A stretch of 44,960 nucleotides of DNA. Origin: an uncultured Burkholderiales bacterium (GTDB lineage Bacteria > Pseudomonadota > Gammaproteobacteria > Burkholderiales > Burkholderiaceae_C). The notes under the pieces were generated by a model. That model worked only from the letters and a program-made list of their open reading frames with translations. It searched no databases and was not told the origin of the DNA. Below, in pieces: positions 3,754-34,193 of the stretch. Location: assembly GCA_903861115.1 (NCBI GenBank), contig CAIOTD010000097.1, positions 1 to 44,960 on the forward strand. Direction: 5' to 3'. Position numbers and translations under genes: made by a program. Numbering within the stretch: position 1 is the stretch's first letter; every line of letters starts with the position of its first letter.

Positions 3754-4655
3754 TCACTTTCTATTAAATCTTCTTCATTTTCAAGCAACCAAAGCGCTCG
3801 AAGCTTCATGGTTTCATTCTGCAAACTCGGGCTCTTTTGTGCAATGGAGATCGCTTTGTTGAGCAAGGACTCAAACATCTGCTTGTCTTTTACAGACACA
3901 GCAATGCGCTCAGCCTTGGACACATAAGGACCTGCATTGCGCTCTTTGGCATATTCAATGGCCAAGTCAAAATATTGCTTGGCCTTGAGTTTTGAGCCAT
4001 TGGGATCGGCCCACTCAAAACTCCCCATCAAACTGGCAAGAGAACCTTCTGAATAAGAGGGATTCAAACGCCACGCCAATTGAGCCAAGCGCATGGCCAC
4101 AGGAAAATCAGCAACCAAATCAGGCTGATCTTTGGCAGTCGAAATCCACCCTCCCAAAGAAGCGGCAGACCAATAAAGCAAACCAACATGTGATTGTCCG
4201 ACGGACAAGCCCCTCATCAAATCATCTGTCGATCTGAGTCTGACCTCAAAGCCAGAGAACTTTAATTCAAGTGCTTTCATTGCGTGGCGGTACCCGCGGG
4301 CATACATCTTGGACGCGCGCTCTCTTAAAACCTCCGCGCCCTTGAAATCTCGACCCTCCAGCTTATCCGCCTCAAATGCAATAAAGGCATAAGCGTATTG
4401 AGTAAAGCCTGAACTCACCGACTCCGCCAATTTCAAATTGGCTGGGGAGCTTGACAGTAAATTTTCTGTCAACTTGAGATAAAAAGGACTGGCATCACGC
4501 GCCAAGATCAAGTCCTCCTCTTGATTGTCCTCGGTCACCACAGTCTTAGCGACTTGATCCACCAAGAATGTATTGATTGCGCAGCCAGATAAGGCGCAGT
4601 AGACAAAAAAAGAGCAAACCGAAACGAGTGTTTTACCAAAAAAGTTATTTGACAT
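3750..4655 (-). CDS. TRAP-associated lipoprotein TatT (TPR-like helical protein)
   Basis: The ATG at 4655 is chosen over an in-frame TTG at 4667; it gives 301 residues with a compact lipoprotein signal (lipobox ALSGC, Cys25). The mature protein is almost entirely helical, with repeated alanine-rich helices typical of the TatT family (TRAP-associated TPR protein, first described in Treponema). TatT trimers bind the P subunit and are thought to help hand hydrophobic ligands to it in the periplasm. It is first in the operon and overlaps the downstream dctP by 4 bp. There is no clear Shine-Dalgarno sequence, which leaves the start slightly uncertain. Confidence 0.85.
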   Translation of the reverse strand: MSNNFFGKTLVSVCSFFVYCALSGCAINTFLVDQVAKTVVTEDNQEEDLILARDASPFYLKLTENLLSSSPANLKLAESVSSGFTQYAYAFIAFEADKLEGRDFKGAEVLRERASKMYARGYRHAMKALELKFSGFEVRLRSTDDLMRGLSVGQSHVGLLYWSAASLGGWISTAKDQPDLVADFPVAMRLAQLAWRLNPSYSEGSLASLMGSFEWADPNGSKLKAKQYFDLAIEYAKERNAGPYVSKAERIAVSVKDKQMFESLLNKAISIAQKSPSLQNETMKLRALWLLENEEDLIESE

Positions 4656-4803
4656 TTTTATGACCAATATTTGGCAAACATATTACCCGTTGTAAATTAA
4701 AACTTGATGACACACGGAGCCCACTAAGCCCCAAGCAAATAAAAAAACAAGATCTCTTAAAAAACGAGACGAGCCACTCGTAAGCAATTGACCAATAAAT
4801 TTT

Positions 4804-7226: not shown

Positions 7227-8543
7227 ATGCAGAATTATCAATCCCTGATTGGAATTGCGATCATCTTGTTGATCGCCATTGGCGTATCCGAAGACCGATC
7301 CCGCATTGATTACAAAAGCCTTGGCAAAGGTTTGCTTTTTCAATTCGTTTTGGCGCTTGTCCTGCTGAAAGTGCCCTTTATACAAAATTTCCTGGGCTCA
7401 TTGAACCAAAGTGTGCTTGAACTTCAAAAGGCCACTCAGGCCGGCACATCGCTCGTTTTTGGTTACCTGGGCGGTGGCCCCTTGCCCTTTGAGGAGAAGT
7501 CACCTGGCATGTCCTTTATCTTGGGACTTCAGGCTTTGCCAATGATTTTGATCTTCAGTGCATTATCTGCACTGCTCTATTACTGGCGTGTATTACCTTT
7601 GGTGATTGGATGCTTTGCTTGGTTACTGGGTCGGGTCTTGAACGTCACAGGTGCAACGTCCTTTGCCAGCATTGCAACCGTTTTTGTGGGCATCGTTGAA
7701 GCGCCTTTGCTCATCAGGCCCTACCTCACAGGTTTGTCCAAAGCAGAACTCTTTGTGGTCATGAGCACTGGCATGTCCACCATATCTGGCACTGTGCTGG
7801 TCATTTATGCGAGTTTTTTACAAAGCACGGTACCCAATGTGGTGACCCATTTGATCATTGCCTCCTTGATCAGTGCGCCGGGTGCTATCGTGCTCAGTCT
7901 CGTGGCAATCCCCAAAATGCCACTCTTTGAAAGCCCACCCTCCTCCCTCCAGGGCCATGACATTCAAGGCCATGGACTTAGGAGTTACATCAAAGCGTTG
8001 CTTCACACCACAGATGCCCATAAAAAATATCAAAGTACCATGGATGCCATCAGTGACGGCACCTTTCAAGGCATGAAATTATTGGCCAGTGTGATTGCCA
8101 TGTTGATTGTTTTGGTGGCCTTGGTCTCACTGGGTAACAGCATTCTTCAACTCTTTCCCTATTTGGAGAGTTCCCCCCTCACCATTCAGCGCGTTATTGG
8201 TTGGGTCATGCAACCGTTTTCTTGGACGCTTGGCATTGAATGGAAGGACACCCAAATTGCAGGTCAATTGATGGGCACGAAGTTGGTGTTGAACGAGTTC
8301 ATCGCCTACCTCGACCTCTCCAAACTCGACCCCAACGCCATCAGCGAACATTCGAGAGTCCTCTTGACGTATTTGCTTTGTGGGTTTGCCAACTTCGGAA
8401 GCCTTGGCATCGTCATTGCAGGCATTGGTTCCATGGCGCCCGACAGACAAAAGGAGATTGTTCAAATGGGCGCCAAGTCCTTGTTGATCGGGACCTTATC
8501 GACCTGTTTATCTGCAGCAATGATTGGCTTGTTGCTGTTTTAA
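7227..8543 (+). CDS. Concentrative nucleoside transporter (CNT/NupC family)
   Basis: 438 residues with about ten predicted membrane helices. The CNT hallmarks are present: GATSFASIATVFVGIVEAPLLIRPYL around residues 140-170 with the EAPLLIRP motif, the helical hairpin GMSTISGTVLVIYA, and near the C-terminus GTKLVLNEFIAYLDL followed by LLCGFANFGSLGI. The family imports nucleosides with a proton or sodium gradient across the inner membrane. It starts 48 bp after the GNAT gene on the same strand and may share its transcript; a bidirectional terminator follows. The specific nucleoside is not predicted. A nucleoside carrier fits a region rich in phosphatases and phosphodiesterases, which would release nucleosides from nucleotides. 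Confidence 0.93.
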   Translation: MQNYQSLIGIAIILLIAIGVSEDRSRIDYKSLGKGLLFQFVLALVLLKVPFIQNFLGSLNQSVLELQKATQAGTSLVFGYLGGGPLPFEEKSPGMSFILGLQALPMILIFSALSALLYYWRVLPLVIGCFAWLLGRVLNVTGATSFASIATVFVGIVEAPLLIRPYLTGLSKAELFVVMSTGMSTISGTVLVIYASFLQSTVPNVVTHLIIASLISAPGAIVLSLVAIPKMPLFESPPSSLQGHDIQGHGLRSYIKALLHTTDAHKKYQSTMDAISDGTFQGMKLLASVIAMLIVLVALVSLGNSILQLFPYLESSPLTIQRVIGWVMQPFSWTLGIEWKDTQIAGQLMGTKLVLNEFIAYLDLSKLDPNAISEHSRVLLTYLLCGFANFGSLGIVIAGIGSMAPDRQKEIVQMGAKSLLIGTLSTCLSAAMIGLLLF

Positions 8544-18702: not shown

Positions 18703-19626
18703 TTAGTATTTCTCCGGAACAATCATGCCTTGCGGAATAGCATGTCGAATGTAATCGGGATTGCGAACCCGGTCAGGCATCACGATTTCTGGTTGATTGA
18801 CCTCGCTGTATTGAACCTGAGAGAGCAAGTGACTGATGCAATTCAAACGGGCCTTTTTCTTGTCAACCGCTTGCACCACCCACCATGGCGCCTCGGGAAT
18901 ATGGGTTCTCTCAATCATCGTTTCTTTGGCTCTGGTGTAATCTTCCCAACGACGGCGGCTCTCCAAGTCCATGGGACTGAGTTTCCACTGCTTCAAGGGA
19001 TCATGAATGCGACCTAAAAAGCGGGTGTATTGCTCATCATCGGTTATAGAGAACCAGTATTTGATGATTTGAATCCCACTTCGTGTGAGCATCTTTTCAA
19101 ACTCAGGGGCCGATTTGAAGAACTCCTCATAGTCATCGTCAGAGCAAAAACCCATGACCTTCTCCACGCCTGCACGGTTGTACCAACTGCGGTCAAATAA
19201 AACAATCTCTCCCGCAGCGGGAAGATGCGAGACGTAACGCTGAAAGTACCACTGGGTTTTCTCGCGATCATTGGGCGCTGGAAGAGCGGCCACACGACAA
19301 ATGCGGGGGTTGAGTCTTTGGGTTATGCGCTTGATGACACCACCTTTGCCTGCCGCATCACGGCCCTCAAACACAATCACCATGCGGTGCTTGTTGGACA
19401 CCACCCAATCTTGAAGCTTGACCAACTCGCCTTGTAATTTGATCAACTCTCTAAAGTAAAAACGCCTAAAGGCAATGGCCTCGGGTGAACGGGTGTCATC
19501 ATCACCAAACCCGACATCTTCGAATTCGTTTTCAAGCTCCTCATCCAAGCTGTCCATCATGTCGTCTCTTAATCGCTGCAATTGCGAGGAATCAAGCTGT
19601 ATTGGAGTTGCCATTTTGTTAACCAT
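18703..19626 (-). CDS. ppk2: Polyphosphate kinase 2 (class I PPK2)
   Basis: 307 residues with one PPK2 domain. The Walker A loop is FEGRDAAGKGGVIKR (about 86-100), the Walker B motif is FDRSWYNRAGVE (about 144-155), and the lid region contains RFLGRIHDPLKQWKLSPMD. PPK2 class I enzymes phosphorylate nucleoside diphosphates with polyphosphate, or run in reverse. An acidic N-terminal stretch of about 45 residues precedes the domain. The start at 19626 is not sure; a second ATG lies at 19614. A strong PHO-box-like repeat lies 38 bp upstream in the right orientation, so phosphate control is likely. It is divergent from the phosphatase genes. Confidence 0.95.
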   Translation of the reverse strand: MVNKMATPIQLDSSQLQRLRDDMMDSLDEELENEFEDVGFGDDDTRSPEAIAFRRFYFRELIKLQGELVKLQDWVVSNKHRMVIVFEGRDAAGKGGVIKRITQRLNPRICRVAALPAPNDREKTQWYFQRYVSHLPAAGEIVLFDRSWYNRAGVEKVMGFCSDDDYEEFFKSAPEFEKMLTRSGIQIIKYWFSITDDEQYTRFLGRIHDPLKQWKLSPMDLESRRRWEDYTRAKETMIERTHIPEAPWWVVQAVDKKKARLNCISHLLSQVQYSEVNQPEIVMPDRVRNPDYIRHAIPQGMIVPEKY

Positions 19627-19663
19627 TTAATAATTGAAAGTCTTTTGAGCATAAGAAGCTCAA

Positions 19664-19681
19664 ATGACATTTTGATGACAA
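19664..19681 (-). promoter_or_regulatory. PHO box facing ppk2
   Basis: On the minus strand two direct repeats, TTGTCAT and ATGTCAT, are separated by CAAA (11-bp period). Each matches the PhoB half-site CTGTCAT at six of seven positions. It ends 38 bp upstream of the ppk2 ATG. Confidence 0.72.
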
Positions 19682-19714
19682 GATTTTTCACATCAAAAAT
19701 GAAACTCATTGTCT

Positions 19715-19732
19715 GTGTCATTAAATTTACAT
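19715..19732 (+). promoter_or_regulatory. PHO box facing the alkaline phosphatase genes
   Basis: On the plus strand GTGTCAT and TTTACAT are separated by TAAA (11-bp period). The first unit matches CTGTCAT at six of seven positions and the second at four. It lies 44 bp before the start of the first phosphatase gene, where a PhoB site would activate a promoter. Confidence 0.6.
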
Positions 19733-19776
19733 CAAGAAAACTTAAGCTCCGCCTTGTCTATGTTTAAAGGTGAACC

Positions 19777-21249
19777 ATGAAAAAATATTTATCTGCATTG
19801 TTCTCGGTGGCAGCGATCGGCCTTTTAGGCGCTTGCAGCTCAAGCGACAGCCCCCCAAAAAATGTTATCTTCTTCCTTGGTGATGGCATGGGCATCACCG
19901 TTCAAACAGCAGCAAGAATTTACGGCTACGGTGAAGATGGACAACTGACCATGGACACACTTCCTGACACGGCCTTTATCAAGACGTTTTCTCAAGACTA
20001 CCAAGTCACGGACAGTGCACCCTCCATGTCGGCCTACATGACGGGTGTCAAGATGAATCAAGATGTCATCTCGATGTCCTCAGACACAACTTCAGTAAGT
20101 CCAGGCAAAGACTCGACAACTGGCGTGTCTAACTCAGTGAACAACTGCTTATCAACAAACGGTAAACCCGTGCAAACGCTTTTGGAGTTGGCAAAGACAA
20201 AAAACATGGGCACCGGCATTGTCACGACAGCGCGATTAACACATGCGACACCCGCCGCAACTTTCTCTCATGTTTGCAATAGAAACGCTGAATACGACAT
20301 TGCCAGACAGGCCGTTCCTGGAGGCACTGGTTTTAATTCAGCTTTGGGCAATGGCGTAGATGTGATGATGGGTGGCAACAGCAAATACTTCATCCCCTTC
20401 AATGCCTCTGGTTCAGCCCTTGAGAAAGCAGGACGTCCTGATGGCAGAAATTTGATCACAGAAATGAAAGGCCAAGGTTATGCTTTTGCCAATGACCTTT
20501 CAAGCCTCAATGCCGTGTCTATCAACTCGTCAACAAAACTCTTGGCTTTGTTTGACCAAGGTGTGTTGGATGCTTCATTCTCAGGCGGACACATGTCTTA
20601 CGACTTGGACAGAAACCCAGCCGCAGAACCCAGTTTGGCAGAAATGACCACCAAAGCCATGGACATCTTGAGTGCCAAGAAAAACAATGGTTACACGCTG
20701 GTTGTTGAAGGAGGTCGAATTGATCACGCCCTTCACGCCACCAATGCAAAGCGTGCCTTGCAAGACACCATCGCATTTGACAATGCCATTGCCGCTGCCA
20801 TTGCAAAGGTTCGCCAAACTGACCCCAATCTCAGTAACACCTTGATCGTCGTGACGGCTGACCATGACCACACCATGATCATGCAAGGTTACTCCGCGCT
20901 GACAGGGAAAACAACCAAAGAAAGTCCTGGTATTTTGGGCGTTTTAAAACAGTGGCTCACACCCACAACCCCTGCCAAGGACGCTGAGGGCGCAACCTTT
21001 AGCGTATTGGCGTTTGGTAACGGTCCCAACCGTGTCTCTGATAGAACGACCATGACGCCCCTGACCGACGCCATCACCGGCGCTGATAACTACCAACAAG
21101 AAACGGCCATTCGCCTTGCAGGCGAAAGTGAAACACACGGGGGTGGCGATGTGTGGTTGGGTGCCATTGGCATGAACTCCAACCTTTTTAAAGGATCGAT
21201 GGAAAACATTGAGGTTTTCCCATTGATCGTCAAAGCACTCGGTTTATAA
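19777..21249 (+). CDS. PhoA-family alkaline phosphatase, lipoprotein
   Basis: 490 residues. The N-terminus is a lipoprotein signal (LLGAC, Cys20), so the enzyme should be membrane-anchored facing the periplasm or surface. Alkaline phosphatase marks: KNVIFFLGDGMG with the metal Asp (D36), nucleophile Ser80 in QVTDSAPSMSAYMTG, VVEGGRIDHALH, VTADHDHTM and ESETHGGGDVWLG near the end. It removes phosphate from monoesters. AAAGG precedes the ATG. The second phosphatase follows after 20 bp and is clearly a paralogue, sharing most motifs and the same spacing from the start to the catalytic Ser. Confidence 0.95.
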   Translation: MKKYLSALFSVAAIGLLGACSSSDSPPKNVIFFLGDGMGITVQTAARIYGYGEDGQLTMDTLPDTAFIKTFSQDYQVTDSAPSMSAYMTGVKMNQDVISMSSDTTSVSPGKDSTTGVSNSVNNCLSTNGKPVQTLLELAKTKNMGTGIVTTARLTHATPAATFSHVCNRNAEYDIARQAVPGGTGFNSALGNGVDVMMGGNSKYFIPFNASGSALEKAGRPDGRNLITEMKGQGYAFANDLSSLNAVSINSSTKLLALFDQGVLDASFSGGHMSYDLDRNPAAEPSLAEMTTKAMDILSAKKNNGYTLVVEGGRIDHALHATNAKRALQDTIAFDNAIAAAIAKVRQTDPNLSNTLIVVTADHDHTMIMQGYSALTGKTTKESPGILGVLKQWLTPTTPAKDAEGATFSVLAFGNGPNRVSDRTTMTPLTDAITGADNYQQETAIRLAGESETHGGGDVWLGAIGMNSNLFKGSMENIEVFPLIVKALGL

Positions 21250-21269
21250 ATTGATTCCAGGAGAATAAG

Positions 21270-22721
21270 ATGAACAGAAAAATTATTGCGAGCCTCTTGG
21301 CAACAACGATCACAGCATTTTGCATGCAAGCTCAGGCAGCAGGTGAAGCCAAGAATGTGATCTTCTTTTTAGGCGACGGCATGGGCCCTGTGGTGGTCAC
21401 GGCATCACGCATTTACGGCTATGGAGAAGCCGGTAAATTGGCCATGGATACCTTGCCCTATGCGGCAAAGATCAGAACTTACTCGGCCGATGCTCAAACC
21501 ACCGACTCAGCGCCAGGGATGGCGGGCTATATCACTGGCGTTCGCATGAAAAACAATGTGATCTCCATGACACCTGACACGAACCCCACCTCCCCCTCAA
21601 CAGACCCCGCTTTCCCCAAAAGCGGCTCATGGATCAACAACTGCAAAACCGATGGCAGCAACGGAAAGTCAGTCCCTACAATTCTTGAGCAAGCCATCGC
21701 CAAGGGCAAATCCACGGGTGTCGTGAGCACGGCCAGAATCACCCACGCCACACCAGCGGTGAACTATGCACACGTATGCAATCGAAACGCAGAGTATGAA
21801 ATCGCTGCTCAATTGACCCCTGGCAGTAAAAGCTTCAACACGGCTCTTGGTAAGGGCGTTGATGTGATTTTGGGCGGCAACAGCAGATATTTTGTGCCGG
21901 TCAATCCAAGCGGCACGACAGAGCAACAAGCCGGCCGCCCCGATGGCAGTGATCTGGTGGGGCTGATGAAGTCGAGCGGATACACCTATGTGACCAACAA
22001 GAACGAATTGTTGGCAGCACCAGCCACAACAGGCTCCAAACTTTTGGGTCTTTTTGATCAGGCCACAGACGACGTTCACATGAGCTACGAGCTAGACAGG
22101 AATCCTGCAATTGAACCTAGCATTGCTGAGATGACCTCTAAAGCCATTGATGTCTTGTCTAAAAACAGCAATGGCTACTTCTTGATGGTCGAAGGCGGTC
22201 GCATTGACCACGCACTTCACGGCACCAATGCTGCGAGAGCCTTGACCGACACATTGGCTTTTGACAATGCTGTAAAAATGGCGTTGAGCAAAGTCGACCT
22301 CAGCAACACATTGATCATTGTGACAGCCGACCACGATCACACCATGGCCTTCAATGGTTATTCCAAACGTGGCAACAACATGCTTGATGTGGTCACAGGA
22401 ACGGACAACAAACCCGTGCTTGACTCAGACGGTAACGCCTATACCACGCTGGTCTTTGGCCAAAGCCCCAACAGACCCAAGGTGCGCAGCAATGTGACCT
22501 CAGATCAATCTAAGAGCATTGGCACTTACAAAGGCGCAAACGTGTTCAATGACGGCGGCGGTTACTTCCAAGAAGGCGTTGTCAAAGCCAGCGCCGGTGG
22601 CGAGACCCATGGCTCAGGTGACGTGATGCTTTTTGCAACTGGTGCTGCAGCACAAAACTTTAAAGGCACCATGCCAAACATCAACGTTTACAGTATCATC
22701 AAAACTGCTTTTGGACTGTAA
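21270..22721 (+). CDS. PhoA-family alkaline phosphatase, exported paralogue
   Basis: 483 residues with a Sec signal peptide (likely cleavage after MQAQA, residue about 23) and no lipobox Cys, so it should be soluble in the periplasm or released. It has KNVIFFLGDGMG, nucleophile Ser80 in TTDSAPGMAGYITG, VEGGRIDHALH, VTADHDHTM and GGETHGSGDVML. AGGAG lies just before the ATG. It forms a tandem pair with the lipoprotein phosphatase upstream, most likely from a local duplication followed by divergence of the leader. A strong terminator follows. Confidence 0.95.
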   Translation: MNRKIIASLLATTITAFCMQAQAAGEAKNVIFFLGDGMGPVVVTASRIYGYGEAGKLAMDTLPYAAKIRTYSADAQTTDSAPGMAGYITGVRMKNNVISMTPDTNPTSPSTDPAFPKSGSWINNCKTDGSNGKSVPTILEQAIAKGKSTGVVSTARITHATPAVNYAHVCNRNAEYEIAAQLTPGSKSFNTALGKGVDVILGGNSRYFVPVNPSGTTEQQAGRPDGSDLVGLMKSSGYTYVTNKNELLAAPATTGSKLLGLFDQATDDVHMSYELDRNPAIEPSIAEMTSKAIDVLSKNSNGYFLMVEGGRIDHALHGTNAARALTDTLAFDNAVKMALSKVDLSNTLIIVTADHDHTMAFNGYSKRGNNMLDVVTGTDNKPVLDSDGNAYTTLVFGQSPNRPKVRSNVTSDQSKSIGTYKGANVFNDGGGYFQEGVVKASAGGETHGSGDVMLFATGAAAQNFKGTMPNINVYSIIKTAFGL

Positions 22722-22745
22722 TATTTAAACATTGCAATCATTCAT

Positions 22746-22773
22746 AAAAGGTACCTCGCGAGGTACCTTTTTT
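22746..22773 (+). terminator. Intrinsic terminator after the phosphatase pair
   Basis: A perfect palindrome with arms AAAAGGTACCTCG and CGAGGTACCTTTT, leading into a six-T run. It lies 24 bp after the second phosphatase stop and just before the next gene. Confidence 0.9.
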
Positions 22774-22795
22774 CTTAGCCTCCACTAAAACAATC

Positions 22796-23515
22796 ATGAC
22801 CTTTCACATCAAGCCTTGCGTTGTCTTCTTATTCGCTTCAATCATCATGGTTTGCACGTCCTTTGCTCAGCCCAAAGGAGACGGCAAGTTCAATTTTTCA
22901 AAACTTGTGGATCTTGACGTAAAAATGAAAACCGAGACCAAAGTCATCGGTAACGATGGCGTCATCCGGACCACATTTTTAGAAGAACATCTTGTTAGAA
23001 AAGGCTCTGCCGCATGGGTCGAGAGAATCATTCCATCCATCGTACCTGCTAAAAAGAAAAGTAAATCTGGCTCTGACCATGAACATTTCGACCCATTGGA
23101 GGGCGCAAGACTGGTTGAACTCGAAAAAGGACAAATCAGATTGAGCTTTCTTCAACACGATGACAAGGTGCGAGTGGGCATTCCCAAGTCAGAATATCAA
23201 TCGATTGGATTTGACGGCTCTTGGGAGCGGGCATACTACATGATGACACCGCAAGAATACGCCGCCCTGAAGCCTACATCTAGGGCTACAGCAATTGCAA
23301 ACACCCAGTGGTATGAAGGTGACGATAAAGAGAACTATCTAAGGATATTGGTCGACTTCAACAACGCAATTCCTTTGTTGATTGAGAGAGGCAATTTTAT
23401 TGGCACCAGAAGTCACAAAACAACTCTGACACCTCAATCCCTCAAGGACATCCCGAAAGAGTGGAAGGCCATCAACACCTATACACCTAAGGTGTACTCA
23501 GATTTTGTCGATTAG
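22796..23515 (+). CDS. Unknown exported protein in the phosphatase cluster
   Basis: 239 residues, not recognised as any family I know. A signal peptide covers residues about 1-24 (hydrophobic VVFLFASIIMVCTSFA, cleavage before QPKGD). The mature protein is mixed alpha/beta and charged, with a Lys/Ser/His-rich loop (KKKSKSGSDHEHFDP, about 86-100) and YYMMTPQEYAALKPTSRA near 148-165. No catalytic motif or membrane helix is evident after the signal. It starts 22 bp beyond the terminator of the phosphatase pair, with no clear ribosome site. Its place among phosphate-scavenging genes suggests a periplasmic role in the same response, which is inference only. Confidence 0.8.
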   Translation: MTFHIKPCVVFLFASIIMVCTSFAQPKGDGKFNFSKLVDLDVKMKTETKVIGNDGVIRTTFLEEHLVRKGSAAWVERIIPSIVPAKKKSKSGSDHEHFDPLEGARLVELEKGQIRLSFLQHDDKVRVGIPKSEYQSIGFDGSWERAYYMMTPQEYAALKPTSRATAIANTQWYEGDDKENYLRILVDFNNAIPLLIERGNFIGTRSHKTTLTPQSLKDIPKEWKAINTYTPKVYSDFVD

Positions 23516-23620
23516 TACGTGCATCCCAAAAGCTTGCACTAGGAAACTGAGGAATTATTGTCCAACCATTGACGCCAAGCGTTTGATTGAGAGCCAACAG
23601 GGCCTACTAAGCCCATCCCA

Positions 23621-23656
23621 CATGGGCAGCGGGTCGCTTAAGACTCGTTGCCCATG
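23621..23656. repeat. Strong hairpin in the convergent gap
   Basis: Arms CATGGGCAGCGGGTC and GACTCGTTGCCCATG pair over all 15 positions if two G-T wobbles are allowed, with a 6-nt loop. It lies between the unknown exported protein and the PhoD gene, which converge. No T tract follows in either direction. Confidence 0.75.
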
Positions 23657-23680
23657 ACATCACCAACTTCAAATGAATTG

Positions 23681-25294
23681 TCAAGACCCCTTGGGCTCAA
23701 GTGTGATTGACCAAAGGGATCGAGCAGACATGTCTCTCAAATCCACCTTAAGGGCTGATGTCTTGGCATCAATTTGCATGTCGCCAAAGAACTGAAGTCC
23801 CTCTGCTGGAGAGAGATTGACACGAACCGAATCGGGATACTTTTGAAATTTAACCTCAATACCAAATGTGTTATCGGTTTTATTGGGACCAAAGGTGCCT
23901 GAACTCAATGGACCGGACATGAATTCCCAAAAGGGATCAAAGTCCTTGAAAACAGCCGATTTTGGATTGTAATAATGCGCCGCTGTGTAGTGCGTATCTG
24001 CAGTGATCCAAACGGTATTTCTTATTTTTTCTTTCTTGATGAAAGTTAAAAGGTTGGCGATTTCAATCTCTCGACCCAAAACCGGCCCATCTCCATTGGC
24101 CACTGCCTCAAAAGAGGGTCGCCCCTCTTTGTCCAAACCGTCCTCAACTTGAAGTCCAATGGGCATATCTGCAGCGATGATTTTCCAAACGGCTTTAGAG
24201 GCTTTGAGCTCACGCTTTAACCATTCCAGCTGTTTTGCCCCAAGGTACTGCGCGTCTGCAGTCCATATCTGTTGCTTGTTGTGGCCATTGCCCGCGCGGT
24301 AAGTGCGCATATCAATGACAAAAATATCTAGTAAGGGCCCTTGTGAGATCTTTCTGTAAATACGCTGCTCCTCGGTTTGCGTGTGCCAGCGCATGGGGGC
24401 ATATTCCATAAACGCTTTTCTGGCCCGTGCGGTCAAAAGAGGAACGCTTTTTTCAGCATATCGGCTGTCTCCAGAGATGTCTTTGCTGGGCGAGTAATTG
24501 TTCATGACCTCGTGATCATCCCATTGCCAAATTTGTGACACTTCGCTATTTAATCGGCGAACGTTGTGATCCATCATGTTGTAACGATAATTGCCCCGAA
24601 ATTCATTGAGTGTTTCGGCCACCTTGGACTTCTCTTGAGTGACCAAGTTTTTCCAAACCATCCCCTTCAGGGGGCCCTCAGAGATGACGACCTCGGATTG
24701 AATGGGACCATCTGCATATACAGTATCCCCACTGTGTATAAAAAAATCAGGATTTAAAGAACGCATGGCTTCATATGTTTTCATCCCCCCTTGCTCTGGA
24801 TTGATGCCCCAGCCTTGGCCGGCTGTATCGCCAGACCACAAAAAACGAATAGATTTCTTGATCAAACTGGGCGTACGGAAATGCCCAACGATTTCCTCGC
24901 TCATGACACCTGTTCTCAAATCTTCAAACTGAATTTTGTAGAAAATATTCTCTCCCGCTGGCAATCCTGTTAAGTCCAAGCGAGCCGTAAAGTCCGTCTC
25001 CTCAAGTGCGAAAGGTGCTGCAACTTTTCTTGGATGGGTGAATTTTTCAACGGTATCCCATTGCACCCACATTTTGGAGTCTCGATCGCAACGAGACCAC
25101 ACCATGCCAGAACCCCCTGAGGTGTCACCACTTTGAACACCATGGTGCATCTTTGGCCGGGAAGCCTCCAAGCTCACCAATGCGGGTGCTTGGGCAAAAC
25201 TCAAAATCGAGGCCAAAGAACCACTTGCACCAACTGCTAGCGGTGCACTTGATTTCAAAAAAAGGCGACGTGTACGGTTTTGGTCGACGCTCAT
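23681..25294 (-). CDS. phoD: PhoD-family alkaline phosphatase/phosphodiesterase, Tat-exported
   Basis: 537 residues. The N-terminus is a textbook Tat signal (TRRLFLK, residues 8-14). An N-terminal beta domain (about 45-145) starts HHGVQSGDTSGGSGMVWSR. The metallophosphatase domain follows with FLWSGDTAGQGWG, FFIHSGDTVYADG, QIWQWDDHEVMNNY, FVIDMRTYRAGN and NTVWITADTHYTAAHYY, all PhoD hallmarks. PhoD enzymes bind calcium and iron and hydrolyse phosphomono- and diesters outside the cytoplasm. The gene is divergent from ugd, and a degenerate PHO-box array lies between them. With two PhoA types nearby, the cell carries three different exported phosphatases in 6 kb. Confidence 0.95.
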   Translation of the reverse strand: MSVDQNRTRRLFLKSSAPLAVGASGSLASILSFAQAPALVSLEASRPKMHHGVQSGDTSGGSGMVWSRCDRDSKMWVQWDTVEKFTHPRKVAAPFALEETDFTARLDLTGLPAGENIFYKIQFEDLRTGVMSEEIVGHFRTPSLIKKSIRFLWSGDTAGQGWGINPEQGGMKTYEAMRSLNPDFFIHSGDTVYADGPIQSEVVISEGPLKGMVWKNLVTQEKSKVAETLNEFRGNYRYNMMDHNVRRLNSEVSQIWQWDDHEVMNNYSPSKDISGDSRYAEKSVPLLTARARKAFMEYAPMRWHTQTEEQRIYRKISQGPLLDIFVIDMRTYRAGNGHNKQQIWTADAQYLGAKQLEWLKRELKASKAVWKIIAADMPIGLQVEDGLDKEGRPSFEAVANGDGPVLGREIEIANLLTFIKKEKIRNTVWITADTHYTAAHYYNPKSAVFKDFDPFWEFMSGPLSSGTFGPNKTDNTFGIEVKFQKYPDSVRVNLSPAEGLQFFGDMQIDAKTSALKVDLRDMSARSLWSITLEPKGS

Positions 25295-25334
25295 TGGCTA
25301 AGCCCTTAATAAATGTGAAAGATTGACTTTATCG

Positions 25335-25374
25335 GTGATAAATTTCAAACATATTTCATTCATTTTAATAACAA
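25335..25374 (-). promoter_or_regulatory. Degenerate PHO-box array upstream of phoD
   Basis: Minus-strand units TTGTTAT, ATGAATG, ATGTTTG and TTATCAC are spaced exactly 11 bp apart with the spacers TAAA, AAAT and AAAT. The first and last match CTGTCAT/C at five of seven positions. The array begins 41 bp upstream of the phoD ATG. Confidence 0.42.
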
Positions 25375-25389
25375 ATTTCCCCACTTTAA

Positions 25390-25429
25390 AAGTCACCCAA
25401 TATTCACACAAATCACATCAAAAGTTCAT
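25390..25429 (+). promoter_or_regulatory. Degenerate PHO-box array upstream of ugd
   Basis: Plus-strand units AAGTCAC, TATTCAC, ATCACAT and AGTTCAT lie exactly 11 bp apart with A-rich spacers. All end in CAC or CAT, as PhoB half-sites do. The array ends 42 bp before the ugd start. Confidence 0.42.
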
Positions 25430-25471
25430 ACGAAAAAGACATAGTCCTATCCATACCGTTGGAGGATGAGA

Positions 25472-26857
25472 ATGAAAATAACAGTAATTGGAACTGGCTA
25501 TGTGGGGTTGGTAACTGGTGCATGCTTGGCCGAGCTAGGCAACGACGTCATTTGCTATGACATCAATGAAGAAAAAATCAAACTACTCAATGATGGCGTC
25601 AGCCCAATCTTTGAAGATGGACTTGAGAGCATCATCAAGAAAAATCTATCATCCAGTCGACTACATTTTTCGACCAACGTTATCGAAGCCGTGCATCATG
25701 GCAAAGTCATCTTCATTGCCGTAGGAACGCCTACCACACCTTCGGGTGCCGCAGATTTAAGTCAAGTAGAAATCTCAGCCAAGAACATTGGGAAATGGAT
25801 CAATGAGTACAAAGTTATTGTGAACAAATCCACGGTTCCAGTAGGTACAGCCGACAAGGTCAAAGAAATTGTTCAATCACAAATTGATCTCGTCTCAATA
25901 AATGACTCTGACTCAACTCAATTCACAGTGCTGTCGAACCCTGAGTTTTTAAAGGAAGGCTGCGCTGTTGACGACTTCATGCGACCCGATCGAATTATTT
26001 TAGGCATTGATCCAGGGCAAAATGCCAATCAGGCAAAAGACTTGATGAATCGACTCTATGCGCCCTTCAATCGTCACCATGAACGTACATTGATCATGAA
26101 CGTAAGGTCTGCCGAGTTCACCAAGTATGCTTCAAATGCCATGCTTGCTACTCGGATTTCCTTCATGAATGAATTGGCAAATTTAGCAGAAAAAATAAAT
26201 GTTGACATTGAATCGGTTAGGAAAGGTATGGGAGCGGATCCCAGAATTGGCTACAGTTTTCTCTATGCAGGCGTGGGATATGGGGGCTCTTGTTTTCCAA
26301 AAGATATTAAAGCCCTTCAAAATACGGCCAACAACCACGACTTGACGCTAGAAATACTTAAGTCGGTTGAGCACGTTAATGAGCAACAAAAAAAGATCAT
26401 GGTGCAAAAAATATTGAAACGATTCGGATCTGATCTAAAAGGCAACATCTTTGCGGTTTGGGGCCTGGCCTTCAAGCCCAACACGGACGATATGCGAGAA
26501 GCACCAAGTTTAAAAGTCATCAAAGGCCTTTTAGAACATGGGGCTAGATTGAGGGTTTATGACCCGGTTTCAATGCAGGCCGCGCAAAGGGCACTTAGAC
26601 ACGAGCTCGCTGAACAAACCCAACTCTTTGAAAAAATTGAATTCATATCGCATCAGTACAAAGTATTGGAGGGTGCACAAGCCCTAGTAATCGTGACTGA
26701 ATGGAAAGAGTTTAAAAGCCCAGACTTTCATTTGATTCGACAAACCTTGAAGTCGCCTGTGATCTTTGATGGCAGAAATCTCTTTGAACCAGAGGTGATG
26801 CAAGAGAGGCATTTTGAATACCACGGCATAGGTCGACACAACAGTTCAGCAGAGTAA
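25472..26857 (+). CDS. ugd: UDP-glucose 6-dehydrogenase
   Basis: 461 residues from ATG 25472, which has GGAGG six bases upstream; an in-frame ATG at 25466 directly abuts that site and is less likely. The NAD-binding start is KITVIGTGYVGLVTGACLAELG, the central helix carries the catalytic Cys in GVGYGGSCFPKD (Cys274), and the C-terminal UDP-binding domain has WGLAFKPNTDDMREAPS. It oxidises UDP-glucose to UDP-glucuronate. No capsule or LPS genes surround it. Instead it converges with a lipid-type glycosyltransferase and lies among phosphate-starvation genes, which points to glucuronic-acid glycolipids as a likely use (inference). Confidence 0.96.
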   Translation: MKITVIGTGYVGLVTGACLAELGNDVICYDINEEKIKLLNDGVSPIFEDGLESIIKKNLSSSRLHFSTNVIEAVHHGKVIFIAVGTPTTPSGAADLSQVEISAKNIGKWINEYKVIVNKSTVPVGTADKVKEIVQSQIDLVSINDSDSTQFTVLSNPEFLKEGCAVDDFMRPDRIILGIDPGQNANQAKDLMNRLYAPFNRHHERTLIMNVRSAEFTKYASNAMLATRISFMNELANLAEKINVDIESVRKGMGADPRIGYSFLYAGVGYGGSCFPKDIKALQNTANNHDLTLEILKSVEHVNEQQKKIMVQKILKRFGSDLKGNIFAVWGLAFKPNTDDMREAPSLKVIKGLLEHGARLRVYDPVSMQAAQRALRHELAEQTQLFEKIEFISHQYKVLEGAQALVIVTEWKEFKSPDFHLIRQTLKSPVIFDGRNLFEPEVMQERHFEYHGIGRHNSSAE

Positions 26858-26945
26858 AGCGCTATCAATCACATCCCATCAAACCAGGATCGCCAATAGA
26901 GGACACTGATCTCGCAAGTCTGGCACTTGGCAGGGTCCTTACTGT

Positions 26946-26985
26946 TTTGCAGCCTGCTCTCACTCAATTCAAAATAGGCTGCAAA
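26946..26985. repeat. Inverted repeat at the 3' end of the glycosyltransferase gene
   Basis: TTTGCAGCCT and AGGCTGCAAA are perfect 10-bp arms around a 20-bp loop, overlapping the last codons of the GT4 gene in the convergent gap with ugd. It may act as a transcription stop for either gene, but no T tract is present. Confidence 0.45.
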
Positions 26986-27971
26986 GAGCTTAAGAACTGT
27001 TGGCTTGCTTTCTCCCAACTGAAATTCAAGGAGTGTTGGTAGACATCGGTTCGGCTCATTTTCAAAGCAGACATGCAAGCTGCCTTCAGATCTTTGTTCA
27101 ACGCTCCAGACACCTGATCTTGAACGACATCTATGGGGCCAGGCACTGGATAGGCAGCAACAGGGGTTCCACAAGACATGGACTCAAGCATCACCAAGCC
27201 AAATGTATCTGTCACACTGGGAAACACAAATACGTCAGCACTTCGATACAAACTGGCCAGAGTCAAACCGTCTAGGACCCCAAACCATCTTACATCTTGA
27301 TAGGTTTTTTCAAGCCTTGCTCTTTCTGGTCCATCACCGGCTACCCACTTTTCTCCAGGCAAGTCCAGCTTCAAAAATTCATCCACATTTTTCTCTACTG
27401 CCAATCGACCCACATGCAAAAAGACAGGTCTATCAGTGGACTGACGCGACTGCTTGGGACCGATCGGTGTAAAAATTTCTTTATCCACGCCTCGCGTCCA
27501 CAATTTGGGGTTGTTAAAGCCCCTGGAACGCAAGTCCTCAACAATGGCTGGCGTGGGCGTTAAGTTGTAGACCCCTTTATTGTGAAATTTTCGAAGGAGT
27601 GCATACGTCCATGAGGTGGGAATCTTAAATCTTGCGTTAACGTATTCTGGAAAGCGGCTATGGTATGCCGTGGTGAAGGCCCAGCCCTTTTGAATTGCAA
27701 TCCGTCGAGCACTCCAACCCAATGGCCCCTCAGTTGCAATGTGCAAACAGTCAGGTTGAATAGACTCAATGACGCCTTTAACTTCTTTGGTACTCGCGAG
27801 TGCCAATGAGATTTCCGGGTAAGTCGGACAAGGGATCGATTTGAAGTCCAGGGGCGTTAAAAAAACAACCTGATGACCTAGCTTCATCAACTCTCTTTGG
27901 GTCATCTTTAAAGTACGCACAACGCCATTGACCTGTGGCTCCCAGGCATCTGTCACGATCAATATTTTCAT
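26964..27971 (-). CDS. GT4 glycosyltransferase, likely glycolipid synthase (Agt-like)
   Basis: 335 residues from ATG 27971 (an upstream in-frame TTG is less likely). It has the GT-B fold of family GT4: the N-terminal lobe starts KILIVTDAWEPQVNGVVRTL and contains PDCLHIATEGPLGWSARR and TAYHSRFPEYVNAR; the C-terminal lobe has FLHVGRLAVEKNVDEF and the nucleotide-sugar motif FPSVTDTFGLVMLESMSCGTPV. Proteins with this opening include the Agt enzymes that put glucose or glucuronate on diacylglycerol during phosphate starvation, and related SqdX/mannosyl enzymes. The neighbours ugd (UDP-glucuronate supply) and lplT (lipid transport) support a lipid acceptor. The usual Agt partner, PlcP, is not in this window. 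Confidence 0.85.
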   Translation of the reverse strand: MKILIVTDAWEPQVNGVVRTLKMTQRELMKLGHQVVFLTPLDFKSIPCPTYPEISLALASTKEVKGVIESIQPDCLHIATEGPLGWSARRIAIQKGWAFTTAYHSRFPEYVNARFKIPTSWTYALLRKFHNKGVYNLTPTPAIVEDLRSRGFNNPKLWTRGVDKEIFTPIGPKQSRQSTDRPVFLHVGRLAVEKNVDEFLKLDLPGEKWVAGDGPERARLEKTYQDVRWFGVLDGLTLASLYRSADVFVFPSVTDTFGLVMLESMSCGTPVAAYPVPGPIDVVQDQVSGALNKDLKAACMSALKMSRTDVYQHSLNFSWEKASQQFLSSLQPILN

Positions 27972-28024
27972 TTGCAATCCAATTCTATTAATGGGTCAAA
28001 GATGATAAAGACATAAGCCACGGA

Positions 28025-29245
28025 TTACGTTTTTAAATTTCTGCAAAAATAAATGATCAAAAAAATCGCAACCAAAATCAGCAAACCAAAGAGCAACATC
28101 AAAAAATTCAATGACACCCCAAAAGCGAGCAACACGCTGTAGAACAAGGAAATCAGCAAAACACTGCTGTTTTCGCAAAAATTTTGAACCGCTATCGATT
28201 GACCAGTAAACACAATTTTCTTTCCTCTATGCTGCAACAATGCATTAAAGGGGACGATCAAAAGTGCACAGACCAAGCCAATTACAACCATCAAAAACGA
28301 AGCACTCCAAACACCTTGCACCAGACTCATAGCCATCATCATCAAGCCAATCATAAAACCCAATTTTGTCAACTTGATGGCATCTTTGACTTTGATGAAG
28401 GCAGCGGCTAGCATCGCGCCAACCACCATCCCCAAAGCCCCAGTGACTTGAAAATACGATGCCTGTGACAAAGTAAAGCCCAACCTTTCCTGAGTCCATA
28501 CCAGTACAAGTAACTGCATTGTTGAACCAATCCCCCAAAACAAGGTGGTCACACACAATGAAATGCGCCCCAGAGGATCTGACCAAAAAAGTCGCAAACT
28601 GCGAAGAAATTCTTTCAAATGCTCACTGAAATGGTCAGTTTGCTGGATTTTTTTAAATCCAGTCTCTGGTAAAAACCGAGTCAAAACACTAGCCAAGGTC
28701 AGCATTAGAATTAACGTCAAGATGGACAAGTACAAACTGCCTGAGTCCTCCAAAACGACGCTGAACCATTGCGCCCATTTGCTTTGCCTCAAAGACTCAC
28801 TCACCAAAAGCCCTCCCAAGAGGAAGCCAAATATTGACGCCAAGACGGTGCTGACCTCTAGCCACGCATTGGCTTTGACCAAGTGGTTCAATTCCACCAT
28901 CTCTGTCGCCAATCCATACTTAGCCGGCGAGTAGATGGCCGCCCCTAGCCCAGCAAGTAGCAAGCATAAGAAGGGATGGGCACCCAAAAGCAACAGGGTG
29001 CATGCACCAATTTTTAGAACCGTTGCGCCTTGCATCACTCGACGCTTAGGCCGAATGTCAGCAACGTGCCCTACCACAGGCGCAAACAAAACAAATGAAA
29101 CAGTAAAGACCGCTTTCAAGATGGGGACCCACCAAGCAGGGTAGGTCTGCTCTTGTAAAAGAGCGATAACGACCAGAATCAAAGCATTGTCAGAAATGCC
29201 AACAATGAATTGAGTAAAGAGGAGTATAAAAAATTGATAATTCAA
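28025..29245 (-). CDS. lplT: Lysophospholipid transporter LplT (MFS)
   Basis: 406 residues with about twelve helices. It matches LplT at FTQFIVGISDNALILVVIALL, FAPVVGHVADIRPKRRVM, GLGAAIYSPAKYGLATEMVE and LVKANAWLEVSTVLASIFG. LplT flips lysophospholipids across the inner membrane for re-acylation by Aas; no aas gene is adjacent. The start is TTG, because no ATG precedes the first conserved helix. It lies 53 bp upstream of the GT4 gene on the same strand, so the two may be co-transcribed. Confidence 0.92.
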   Translation of the reverse strand: MNYQFFILLFTQFIVGISDNALILVVIALLQEQTYPAWWVPILKAVFTVSFVLFAPVVGHVADIRPKRRVMQGATVLKIGACTLLLLGAHPFLCLLLAGLGAAIYSPAKYGLATEMVELNHLVKANAWLEVSTVLASIFGFLLGGLLVSESLRQSKWAQWFSVVLEDSGSLYLSILTLILMLTLASVLTRFLPETGFKKIQQTDHFSEHLKEFLRSLRLFWSDPLGRISLCVTTLFWGIGSTMQLLVLVWTQERLGFTLSQASYFQVTGALGMVVGAMLAAAFIKVKDAIKLTKLGFMIGLMMMAMSLVQGVWSASFLMVVIGLVCALLIVPFNALLQHRGKKIVFTGQSIAVQNFCENSSVLLISLFYSVLLAFGVSLNFLMLLFGLLILVAIFLIIYFCRNLKT

Positions 29246-29394
29246 GCTTGTTCTGGCTCTCTTTTAAGCAAAAGGAACTAGAACATACTTTTATGACAAA
29301 TAAGTGACTCAACAATGACTTCCCTCAAGAATCCTTACTAACCGGACCTAAAGAAACTAAAATTCAAGAGGCCAGTGGATCTCAATCAGACCGC

Positions 29395-31206: not shown

Positions 31207-31743
31207 TTATTTTTCTAATTTTTTATAATTGTTCATGCCCTCAAGCACCTCTGCTCTCGCTGCATCGGGACCTTCCCAGCCAATGATTTTGACCCACTTG
31301 CCAACCTCTAAATCTTTGTAATGCTCAAAGAAATGCGCAATGGTCTTGAGTCTCAAAGGGTTCAAGTCCTCGGGCTTTTGCCACTGCGTGTAAATGGACA
31401 AAATCTTGTCGGTGGGTACGGCCAAGACTTTCCCATCCATACCCGCCTCATCTTCCATTTTCAAAATCCCAATGGGGCGACAAGTCACCACCACACCTGG
31501 AATCAAAGGAACAGGGGTGATCACCAACACATCCACCGGATCGCCATCACCACTGATGGTCTGGGGCACATAGCCATAGTTGGTGGGGTAATGCATGGAC
31601 GTGCTCATGAAACGGTCCACAAAAATGGCACCCGTCTCTTTGTCGACCTCGTACTTCACGGGATCCGCATTCATGGGGATCTCAATGATGACGTTAAAAA
31701 AATTAGGGGCTTCTTTGCCTGGTGTGACGTTATCTAAGGACAT
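31207..31743 (-). CDS. ppa: Inorganic pyrophosphatase (soluble, family I)
   Basis: 178 residues from ATG 31743, which begins at the conserved [22 protein letters not shown]; upstream in-frame codons give an unlikely extension. The active-site signature [13 protein letters not shown] and YGYVPQT are present. It hydrolyses cytoplasmic pyrophosphate. It is divergent from hppA, the membrane pyrophosphatase, so two PPi-consuming enzymes share one 254-bp control region. Confidence 0.97.
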
Positions 31744-31882
31744 GGTTCTCTGTTTCTCTAATGAAATTAAACTCAGGATTAACCCGTATTTTAAGCCCAT
31801 CTAAGGGCAAATCTCAAACTAGCGGCTTGATATATCACGTACATTGATCCTCGAATCTGGATTTTTTTACGATTTCCAATCT

Positions 31883-31900
31883 TTTTGATCAGGATCAAAA
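31883..31900. repeat. Palindrome between ppa and hppA
   Basis: TTTTGATC-AG-GATCAAAA is a perfect palindrome with 8-bp arms near the middle of the ppa/hppA intergenic region, 97 bp before hppA. It could be an operator; no regulator is indicated. Confidence 0.4.
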
Positions 31901-31997
31901 GAAAGCGCTGAAATCTTGATTCAATCACCTTTGTTCAAATTGAACTTGCAACGTGCAAGAGATGAAACAAAAATTTTTCACACATTGAGGAGAAATT

Positions 31998-34193
31998 ATG
32001 TACGCCAATTCAGCGCTTCTTTTCGCGCTAGCTTGTGGGGTCATTGCCGTGATCTACGGTTTTTGGGCCCGATCATCAATTTTGGCCATGGATCCTGGCA
32101 ATGCACGGATGCAAGAAATTGCAGCAGCCATTGAACAAGGGGCTGCGGCCTATCTCGCAAGACAGTACAGAACCATTGCCATGGTGGGCGTGGTGTTGAC
32201 CCTTCTGATTGGCATCTTTCTAAGCACCACGACCGCCCTGGGCTTTGTCGTGGGCGCGGTCCTCTCTGGTGCTTGTGGCTTTATCGGCATGAATGTGTCC
32301 GTCAAAGCCAATGTCCGAACAGCCCAAGCAGCAACAGGGGGCATTGCCCCAGCGCTTGATGTTGCGTTCAAAGGCGGCGCCATCACTGGAATGCTGGTGG
32401 TCGGACTTGGCTTGCTTGGCGTGGGCGGCTTTTATTGGTTTTTAGTTGGCACAGGCACCCTGAGCGCAGACCAAAACCTCTCAGAGCTTTTGAATCCTTT
32501 GATTGGCCTGGCCTTTGGCTCATCCCTCATCTCCATTTTTGCAAGACTTGGAGGCGGTATATTTACCAAAGGCGCCGATGTTGGCGCGGACCTGGTGGGC
32601 AAAGTTGAAGCGGGCATTCCTGAGGATGACCCAAGAAACCCAGCGGTGATAGCAGACAATGTCGGAGACAATGTGGGCGACTGTGCAGGCATGGCGGCAG
32701 ACCTCTTTGAAACCTACGCCGTCACATTGATCGCCACCATGCTGTTGGGCGCCCTGGTCGTGACCACTGCACCCACACAAGCGGTCCTCTACCCCTTGGT
32801 TTTGGGCGGCGTATCGATCATAGCGTCCATCATTGGGTGCTTCTTCGTCAAAGCCTCGCCTGGCATGAAAAACGTCATGCCCGCCTTGTACAAGGGCTTG
32901 ATCGTGGCTGGCGTTTTAAGTTTGATTGCATTTGCCTTTGTGACTTGGAACATGATGCCTGATGATGCCATCAAAGCCAGTGGCTCTCGAGTGGCCTTGT
33001 TTGGATCGTGCTTGGTGGGCTTGTTGCTCACAGCCGCTTTGGTTTGGATCACGGAGTACTACACCGGCACCGACTACCCACCCGTTAAGCACGTGGCACA
33101 AGCGTCCACCACTGGACACGCCACCAACATCATCGCGGGCATCGGTGTGTCCATGAAATCAACCGCCTACCCCGTGTTGTCCGTGTGTTTGGCCATCTTG
33201 TCCGCTCACGCTTTGGCAGGCCTGTACGGTGTGGCCATTGCCGCCACCGCCATGCTCAGCATGGCAGGCATCATTGTGGCCCTAGACGCTTATGGCCCCA
33301 TCACCGACAATGCTGGCGGCATTGCTGAAATGGCCGAGTTGCCCTCAAGTGTGCGAGACGTCACAGATCCCCTGGATGCAGTCGGCAACACCACCAAAGC
33401 GGTGACCAAGGGCTATGCCATTGGTTCAGCGGGTTTGGCCGCCTTGGTGCTCTTTGCCGATTACACGCACAAACTCGAGAGTGTGGGTCAAGACATCACC
33501 TTTGATTTATCAGACCCCATGGTGATTGTGGGCCTGTTCATCGGGGGCATGATTCCTTATCTCTTTGGCGCCATGGCCATGGAGGCGGTGGGCCGCTCTG
33601 CAAGCGCTGTGGTCGAAGAGGTTCGCCGGCAATTTAGAGAGATCAAAGGCATCATGGAGGGAACTGCAAAACCCGAGTACGGCCGTGCGGTGGACATGCT
33701 CACCACAGCGGCCATCAAAGAGATGATGATCCCATCCTTGTTGCCCGTGGTCGTTCCCATTTTGGTGGGCTTGATCCTGGGGCCCAAAGCATTGGGCGGG
33801 CTTTTGATGGGCACCATTGTGACGGGCTTGTTTGTGGCCATTTCAATGTGCACGGGTGGAGGCGCCTGGGACAATGCAAAGAAATACATTGAAGACGGCC
33901 ATCATGGCGGCAAAGGCAGCGATGCCCACAAAGCAGCCGTCACAGGTGACACCGTGGGTGACCCCTACAAAGACACCGCAGGTCCAGCCGTCAACCCATT
34001 GATCAAAATCATCAACATTGTGGCACTCTTGTTGGTGCCCCTGTTGCCCATCACGCATGCACCAACTTCCGCAGGCGCGCACGTGGCAACACCACCGGCC
34101 GTGGTTGCACCCGCTGAGCAAGGGACATCAACTATAACTGCACCCCCTGTACCCCCTGCACCCGCTGTAACTGCACAACCTGCAGCCAAGTAA
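31998..34193 (+). CDS. hppA: Proton-translocating membrane pyrophosphatase, K+-independent type
   Basis: 731 residues with about sixteen helices. The substrate loop [37 protein letters not shown] (split around residues 192-228) and the C-terminal [17 protein letters not shown] are hallmark sequences. At the site that separates potassium-dependent (Ala) from potassium-independent (Lys) enzymes it has GNTTKA, Lys467, so it should be the K+-independent proton pump. It stores pyrophosphate energy as proton gradient. A Pro/Ala/Thr-rich tail of about 45 residues follows the last helix, which is unusual. GAGGAG lies just before the ATG; a terminator follows. Confidence 0.97.

Follow-up and report, generated by a model that had tools for sequence, protein, structure and literature searches.

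Does a run of phosphatase, polyphosphate and lipid genes in an uncultured Burkholderiales bacterium act as one dedicated answer to phosphate starvation? The genes lie in a 44,960-nucleotide stretch, here called the window, that is contig CAIOTD010000097.1 (C97) of assembly GCA_903861115.1 (2.79 Mb, 200 contigs), and comprise ppk2, two phoA genes, unkX (coding for an exported protein of an unnamed family), phoD, ugd, a GT4 glycosyltransferase gene and lplT2 (Table 1). An earlier note on this DNA had placed these eight genes at 18703..29245 and read them as a single unit linking phosphate scavenging to lipid replacement. All eight open reading frames (ORFs) are present there, with identities upheld by profile searches, and the core idea of the link stands, being backed by linkage to plcP and by PHO boxes; the single unit does not, since the genes fall into two conserved modules joined in one small lineage (the window, its near relative L002 and genome G148; decayed in genome G137).

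The gene identities and order, conserved PHO boxes, co-occurrence and a substituted LplT2 residue make it likely, in our view, that the locus is a PhoB-type, phosphate-starvation-controlled island of two modules, one harvesting phosphate and the other lowering the need for it. The genes suggest the following for induction, for the donor sugar, the lipid product and the transported substrate, and for the direction in which PPK2 works. Upon phosphate shortage, two PhoA proteins, one a lipoprotein and the other exported, would gather phosphate together with their partner UnkX and, in this lineage, the added PhoD. In the second module, Ugd would supply UDP-glucuronate, and the clade-A, Agt2-like GT4 would transfer glucuronate onto diacylglycerol freed by PlcP; the plcP gene lies on a different contig, next to those for a second Agt, OlsB, PPK1 and the Pst transporter. 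The anionic glucuronosyl-diacylglycerol so made would take the place of phosphatidylglycerol and would be carried across the inner membrane by LplT2, apparently co-transcribed with the GT4, while PPK2 would turn polyphosphate into nucleotide triphosphate. With phosphate harvest beside the predicted synthesis of a phosphorus-free sugar lipid and a predicted lipid mover, membranes could form without phosphorus. To the known PlcP-Agt pathway the island adds a source of UDP-glucuronate, a distinct LplT paralogue, PPK2 and a phosphatase triad that includes UnkX, the flippase subfamily and UnkX being the new and surprising parts; no description of such a cluster was found in the open-licence PMC literature on LplT and phosphate starvation, PlcP and flippases, tandem PhoA in Burkholderiales, or ugd and Pho boxes.

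Gene identities and PHO boxes

PPK2 scores 372 bits against a TIGR03707 cut-off of 302 and contains the Walker motif GRDAAGKGG, and LplT2 scores 394 bits against an NF008397 cut-off of 297. Both PhoA proteins match PF00245 and carry the motifs TDSA and TADHDH, scoring under the NF007810 cut-off, and PhoD combines PhoD and PhoD_N domains with an RRLFL motif, scoring under the NF058638 cut-off; the export signals of these three phosphatases and of UnkX, including the Tat signal of PhoD, were assigned by eye from the N-termini. Spacing is tight, with 20 bases between phoA1 and phoA2, 74 between phoA2 and unkX, and 47 between lplT2 and gt4, which follow each other on the same strand as an apparent operon with lplT2 first. 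Searches of PDB sequences with the GT4 (E <= 1e-10) and with LplT2 gave no match.

Promoters were scored with a generic PhoB model of two TKTCAY half-sites at 11-base spacing (12 scored positions, threshold at least 11/12). The PHO-box-like repeats that the earlier note saw in both divergent promoters are borne out, these two regions holding three sites against 0.09 expected (three reached in 3 of 5000 resamplings) at positions kept in relatives. That note had missed a third set, a run of half-sites before lplT2-gt4; adding this region, which was chosen after its site had been seen, gives four sites against 0.13 expected and 0 of 5000 resamplings. Across the whole window such sites are at chance level (7 versus a mean of 5.3 in 60 shuffles), so that the case rests on the tests confined to promoters and on those across species. 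Both boxes between ppk2 and phoA1 are kept in 4/4 genomes and the run before ugd in 3/3, although the first pair of the latter reaches just 10/12 in the window, and its four half-sites together 19/24.

Comparisons covered 61 genus genomes and 399 order genomes (own genome included); the genus genomes are kin, so that neither counts nor Fisher statistics come from independent samples. With this proviso, at least 11/12 positions match in 61 of 96 regions upstream of phosphorus-cluster genes in genus loci versus 6 of 40 control genes (Fisher 1.4e-7). Among the regions scored, this level is attained by lplT2 in 9/9 (one of them the G137 remnant), by ugd in 10/11 and by the positive control pstS in 3/3.

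Gene order and the plcP neighbourhood

The relatives answer the question of a conserved gene order in two ways: ugd, lplT2, ppk2 and GT4 genes recur near plcP, but the full eight-gene order is confined to the window and L002 (contig CAIZIT010000063.1 of the metagenome-assembled genome uncultured Burkholderiales A-1_bin-193), which keeps the whole block together with its flanks. Counted over genus genomes holding both genes, and taking at most 20 kb between genes as linkage, plcP is linked to ugd in 21/33, to lplT2 in 26/37, to ppk2 in 24/40 and to any GT4 gene in 36/43, whereas the housekeeping lplT control is linked to it in 1/44. Clade-A gt4 is so placed in 9 of 11 genomes, but not in the window's own. 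These counts leave out plcP, ppk2 and phoD rows below 35%, 40% and 50% identity, respectively, and partial matches to PhoA paralogues of 660-720 residues. LplT rows of 34-39% identity were assigned to LplT1, except G171:C7 (39%) and G143:C32 (38%, a fragment), which were assigned to LplT2 by their position in the lipid cluster; the G137 remnant was likewise put with LplT2. With these three removed, lplT2-plcP linkage is 25/34.

Individual arrangements vary around a common set of genes. Genome G122 (locus L056) joins ppx-sixA-ppk1-agtB-plcP-olsB-ugd-gt4-lplT-ppk2 in one block of about 12 kb; G146 and G169 have ppk2-olsB-plcP-gt4-ugd, G124 and G140 ugd-gt4-plcP and then a weak match to olsB (29-30%), and G080 and G152 lplT-ugd-agtB-plcP-olsB. 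The window's own genome holds pstA-pstS-ppx-sixA-ppk1-agtB-plcP-olsB-glmM on contig C168 (L043), outside the window; the phosphoesterase beside the Agt-type GT4 there is called PlcP on synteny and a Metallophos profile, and it does not reach the LpxH cut-offs. In this genus, ugd, gt4, lplT2 and ppk2 thus belong to the gene neighbourhood of PlcP-Agt lipid replacement, and what speaks against a single unit is that the window's genome encodes the central enzymes of that process, PlcP, the first Agt and OlsB, on a separate contig. Descent of all eight genes from one ancestral operon was also considered, and is rejected by the gene orders in genus and order genomes.

The two modules could be independent Pho-regulon units (the triad of phoA1, phoA2 and unkX with ppk2, and ugd-gt4-lplT2) that ended up next to each other in one lineage and share only PhoB control, an alternative that we take seriously while giving it somewhat under even chances. 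It fits the 17 of 18 order genomes in which the stretch fetched, of 3.8 to 20 kb, contains the triad and no lipid genes, as well as the narrow range of the joint block, seen only in the window, in L002 and, without phoD, in G148 (L057; lplT-gt4-ugd-unkX-phoA2-phoA1-ppk2-femAB-nadE). It also fits G137 (L058), where unkX-phoA2-phoA1-ppk2 is present and lplT2 survives only as a remnant with in-frame stops (7765-8070) beside an intact unkX; neither ugd nor a clade-A gt4 was found in this genome, which is 99% complete and in which the lipid module has been lost naturally. This reading is harder to reconcile with G087, a genome of another genus that separately sets the triad inside a lipid cluster, with olsB-plcP-agtB-ppk1-sixA-ppx-phoA1-phoA2-unkX-pstS-pstA in one stretch (L097, 3394-16900), or with G163, G165 and G154, whose clusters contain or adjoin other, remote genes of PhoA type (29-37% identity), and ppk2 goes with lipid clusters no less than with the triad.

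For the two-module island itself, the restriction of the full order to two genomes is one of several observations that count against it. G148, which is 96% complete, keeps ugd-gt4-lplT, yet no PlcP or agtB was found in it; its gt4 match is flagged for one in-frame stop, and its lplT is divided across contig ends. More widely, lplT2 has no plcP within 20 kb in 11/37 genomes, the window's included (some of these are contig breaks), and the lplT-gt4A pair of other genera lacks plcP within the fetched 20 kb in 5/6 cases and has a PHO box of at least 11/12 in just 1/6. Within the 30 genomes that are at least 90% complete, presence/absence association is weaker (P = 0.095 for lplT2-plcP and 0.013 for ugd-gt4A). 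No upstream region reached 11/12 among the 11 scored for plcP or the two scored for gt4, for which an operon-internal position may account. Direct TGTCAT-like repeats with an 11-base period, found upstream at three promoter regions, are missing from the phoD strand (best 8/12 in the window and 9/12 in L002), and the close phoD genes of G122, G124, G147 and G153 have no other block gene within 20 kb.

LplT2 and its glycosyltransferase partner

An LplT-family match occurs in 60/61 genus genomes, many of which have two copies, and the window's own genome holds a separate LplT1. In the tree, the window protein belongs to one clade (98/94) with the other-genus copies that lie beside gt4A; the housekeeping copies stand outside it and cluster with E. 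coli LplT, which is on a long branch. The two groups part at the position of E. coli Arg236, a residue that is presumably important for function there: it is Gln in 34/34 LplT2 rows and in 5/5 distinct other-genus copies, against Arg in 22/22 LplT1 rows. Since the LplT2 and other-genus rows form one clade, this is one inherited substitution rather than 34 events. The 34 LplT2 rows stand for 33 genomes (G148 as two pieces; L002 included) and omit G137, G143, G159, G167, G171 and G175 of the 38 genus genomes counted; the LplT1 rows are a subset of 58 listed, and the other-genus copies derive from 10 rows for 5 distinct genomes. Removed from the alignment as short were the G137 remnant, of 91 residues, and L006/L035, of 148.

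By residue and tree, then, LplT2 is a distinct Pho-linked subfamily, and it may flip the new glycolipid. It could also import lysophospholipids in the ordinary way, being induced to recover the lysolipids that arise from phospholipid breakdown, which we hold to be a tenable if somewhat doubtful reading. As such an importer would, the protein passes the NF008397 cut-off and keeps Asp30 (in all 32 of the 34 rows that reach the column) and, where covered, Lys120 of E. coli LplT, in which a D30N change abolishes transport according to the available text of PMC11416262. Set against this are the exchange at Arg236, the separate LplT1 in the same genome and the operon partner, a glycosyltransferase; no block protein has a match to an acyltransferase profile. 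E. coli Aas had no match in the 9 kb around the genome's own LplT1, the rest of the genome not having been searched for it. Compared with the E. coli LplT-Aas system, LplT2 shares the family and Asp30 and differs in its apparent operon partner, its PHO-box promoter and its Gln. In its proposed role it resembles LtaA of the S. aureus YpfP-LtaA pair, where a glycosyltransferase likewise goes with a lipid flippase of the major facilitator superfamily (MFS) and the product is a lipoteichoic-acid anchor (PMC8866510, as far as its available text goes).

A bolder proposal, which we consider rather unlikely, is that LplT2 heads a PhoB-controlled subfamily of MFS lipid flippases and flips the phosphorus-free glycolipid of its operon partner, the loss of the arginine on the headgroup side (Arg236) matching a phosphate-free cargo, and that UnkX is a dedicated periplasmic partner of the tandem PhoA proteins. 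If this were true, the PlcP-Agt pathway would have its missing transporter in LplT2. Glycolipid replacement of phospholipids under phosphate stress is widespread, and the available text of PMC8528852, PMC4796936, PMC9239053 and PMC6445935 does not address how replacement glycolipids cross the inner membrane ('flippase' is absent from the main text of each of the first three, and 'flipp' appears once, in the reference list of PMC6445935); an LplT paralogue that has a Pho box, a fixed substitution and a glycosyltransferase as apparent operon partner makes this question directly testable.

The partner enzyme falls into clade A of a GT4 tree of 56 rows, in which clades A, B (agtB) and C are separate, with modest support for A (85/36) and firm support for B and C. 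In P. aeruginosa, the plcP-linked Agt1 makes glucosyl-diacylglycerol (glucosyl-DAG) and a separate Agt2 glucuronosyl-DAG, both genes having Pho boxes (available text of PMC8528852). Here, ugd is present in 12/12 genomes with gt4A versus 9/18 with agtB (34/41 with clade A or C), and lies within 20 kb of gt4A in 9/12; gt4 is for this reason taken as a glucuronosyl-diacylglycerol synthase, which by analogy with Agt2 it probably is, and its tie to ugd offers a prediction as to which Agt of the two gives the anionic lipid. Of nine clade-A gt4 genes in other genera, six neighbour an lplT gene. As first acidic residue of the EX7E motif, Asp is found in 19/19 clade-A and 5/31 agtB rows, from which no conclusion is drawn.

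GT4 and Ugd families are also frequent in polysaccharide loci. The trio ugd-gt4-lplT2 might accordingly provide uronic acid for an exopolysaccharide, capsule or lipopolysaccharide, with low phosphate switching surface polymers; the GT4, which falls below every NCBIfam cut-off listed for it as query, leaves room for this. We nonetheless find it improbable: the ten proteins scanned in or beside the block include no polymerase, Wzx/Wzy or other glycosyltransferase, gt4A stands beside plcP in relatives, and recurrent neighbours are OlsB-like, PSD-like and acyltransferase lipid enzymes.

A glycolipid role for the trio places it close to PlcP-Agt lipid renovation in Agrobacterium, SAR11, other marine bacteria and P. 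aeruginosa, with which it shares Pho boxes, a PlcP-Agt pair, a second, separate Agt, and glucuronosyl- and glucosyl-DAG as expected products (available text of PMC4796936 and PMC8528852). It differs in having ugd, an LplT paralogue and PPK2 in the neighbourhood and an Agt2-like gene among phosphatases, and its product is predicted from the genes. P. aeruginosa Agt2 (PA0842) is likewise a second GT4 away from plcP with its own PHO box, in a report whose main text, as available, does not mention ugd or LplT (PMC8528852); the likeness drawn here is one of gene position, promoter and predicted product.

Table 1. Genes, PHO sites and a hairpin of the island, in window coordinates
Feature	Position	Strand	Support or conservation
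ppk2, class-I type polyphosphate kinase 2	18703..19626	-	TIGR03707, Walker motif, PDB PPK2 relatives
PHO box TGTCATCAAAATGTCAT, 12/12, aimed at ppk2	19664..19680	-	kept in L002, L057, L058
PHO box TGTCATTAAATTTACAT, 11/12, aimed at phoA1	19716..19732	+	kept in L002, L057, L058
phoA1, alkaline phosphatase, predicted lipoprotein	19777..21249	+	PF00245, lipobox by eye, catalytic motifs
phoA2, alkaline phosphatase, Sec-type signal	21270..22721	+	PF00245, motifs
hairpin then T-run between phoA2 and unkX	22746..22771	+	folds in window, L002, L057, L058
unkX, exported protein, unnamed family	22796..23515	+	follows phoA in 18/18 homologues elsewhere
phoD, PhoD-family phosphatase, Tat-type signal	23681..25294	-	PF09423, PF16655, RRLFL
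separate PHO site near ugd, 11/12	25343-25359		conserved less
four PHO half-sites, 11-base period, aimed at ugd	25391..25429	+	kept in L002, L057
ugd, UDP-glucose 6-dehydrogenase	25466..26857	+	TIGR03026 over cut-off, GGSCFPKD
gt4, clade A, Agt-type glycosyltransferase	26964..27977	-	GT4 domains PF13439, PF00534, PF13692
lplT2, LplT-family MFS lipid transporter, Arg236 to Gln	28025..29245	-	NF008397, residues, tree
PHO half-site run aimed at lplT2-gt4	29282..29320	-	also in L002, L072, L056

The phosphatase triad, phoD and neighbouring genes

The genes phoA1, phoA2 and unkX form a conserved triad. Tandem phoA pairs occur in 22/399 order genomes (phoA2 match at E <= 1e-60; a 23rd lies on a cut contig), of which 18 have unkX and 4 have none that is recognisable. 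UnkX itself was found in 3/61 genus and 19/399 order genomes, and in other genera its gene lies directly behind phoA in 18/18 cases (17 with the full pair, one on a cut contig), and it thus stood next to phoA in all genomes examined. Upstream of the triad, other genera show weak PHO boxes, at 5/17 loci versus 7/340 random stretches from the same loci (one locus was skipped for its cut contig). Apart from PF00245, the catalytic motifs and PHO boxes, which it shares with the PhoA and Pho regulon of E. coli, the triad differs in its paralogous pair and its unnamed exported partner.

That partner had been listed by the earlier note as an unknown exported protein; it has a Sec-type signal and no Pfam, NCBIfam or PDB match, and UnkX is an unannotated family and a new part of the system. 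In an alignment of 22 sequences, seven residues are invariant, His97 is present in at least 90% within a His-rich stretch, and the C-terminus has a conserved D-x-x-D; under the bolder proposal above, the histidines would possibly point to a role as zinc or folding factor. AlphaFold2, run on two sequences, gave a mean pLDDT of 32.6. The hairpin and T-run ahead of unkX suggest lower or conditional expression of this gene, and are not among the 14 sites of a simple terminator scan, whose count is itself at chance level.

PhoD, judged by gene order, is a late addition to the block: its gene is at this place only in the window and L002 and is absent from it in L057 and L058, and its presence in two of these four genomes of the lineage likewise goes against a single unit.

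Other genes near the island or its relatives may deserve notice. A pair at 4897-7178 (+) consists of a DUF3419 (PF11899) gene, of a family that we take to hold the betaine-lipid enzyme BtaA, overlapping an ORF with a GNAT-like match just under cut-off, which occupies the place of the BtaB methyltransferase. This pair lies within or beside the phosphorus-lipid cluster in G122, G124 and G140, its upstream score in the window being just 9/12, and it may be an outlying member of that cluster; PDB sequence searches with ORF 4897-6138 and ORF 6135-7178 gave no match. At 947-4667 (-) is a TRAP transporter with a T-component (DctQM fusion, DctP, TAtT), relatives of which stand between the lipid cluster and ppk2 in G152; in both the window and L059, the T-component gene has an 11/12 PHO site ahead of it.

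Elsewhere in the genus, a recurrent phosphorus-lipid module combines a PSD-like decarboxylase, a class-III aminotransferase and an Mpo1-like membrane protein (under cut-off; PHO boxes in 8/8 of its scored upstream regions), at L048 (6876-11448), L059, L060, L063, L065, L068, L071 and L073, with the third GT4 clade in some. Just past the island (31207-34193), a soluble inorganic pyrophosphatase and a membrane H+-pyrophosphatase are encoded divergently.

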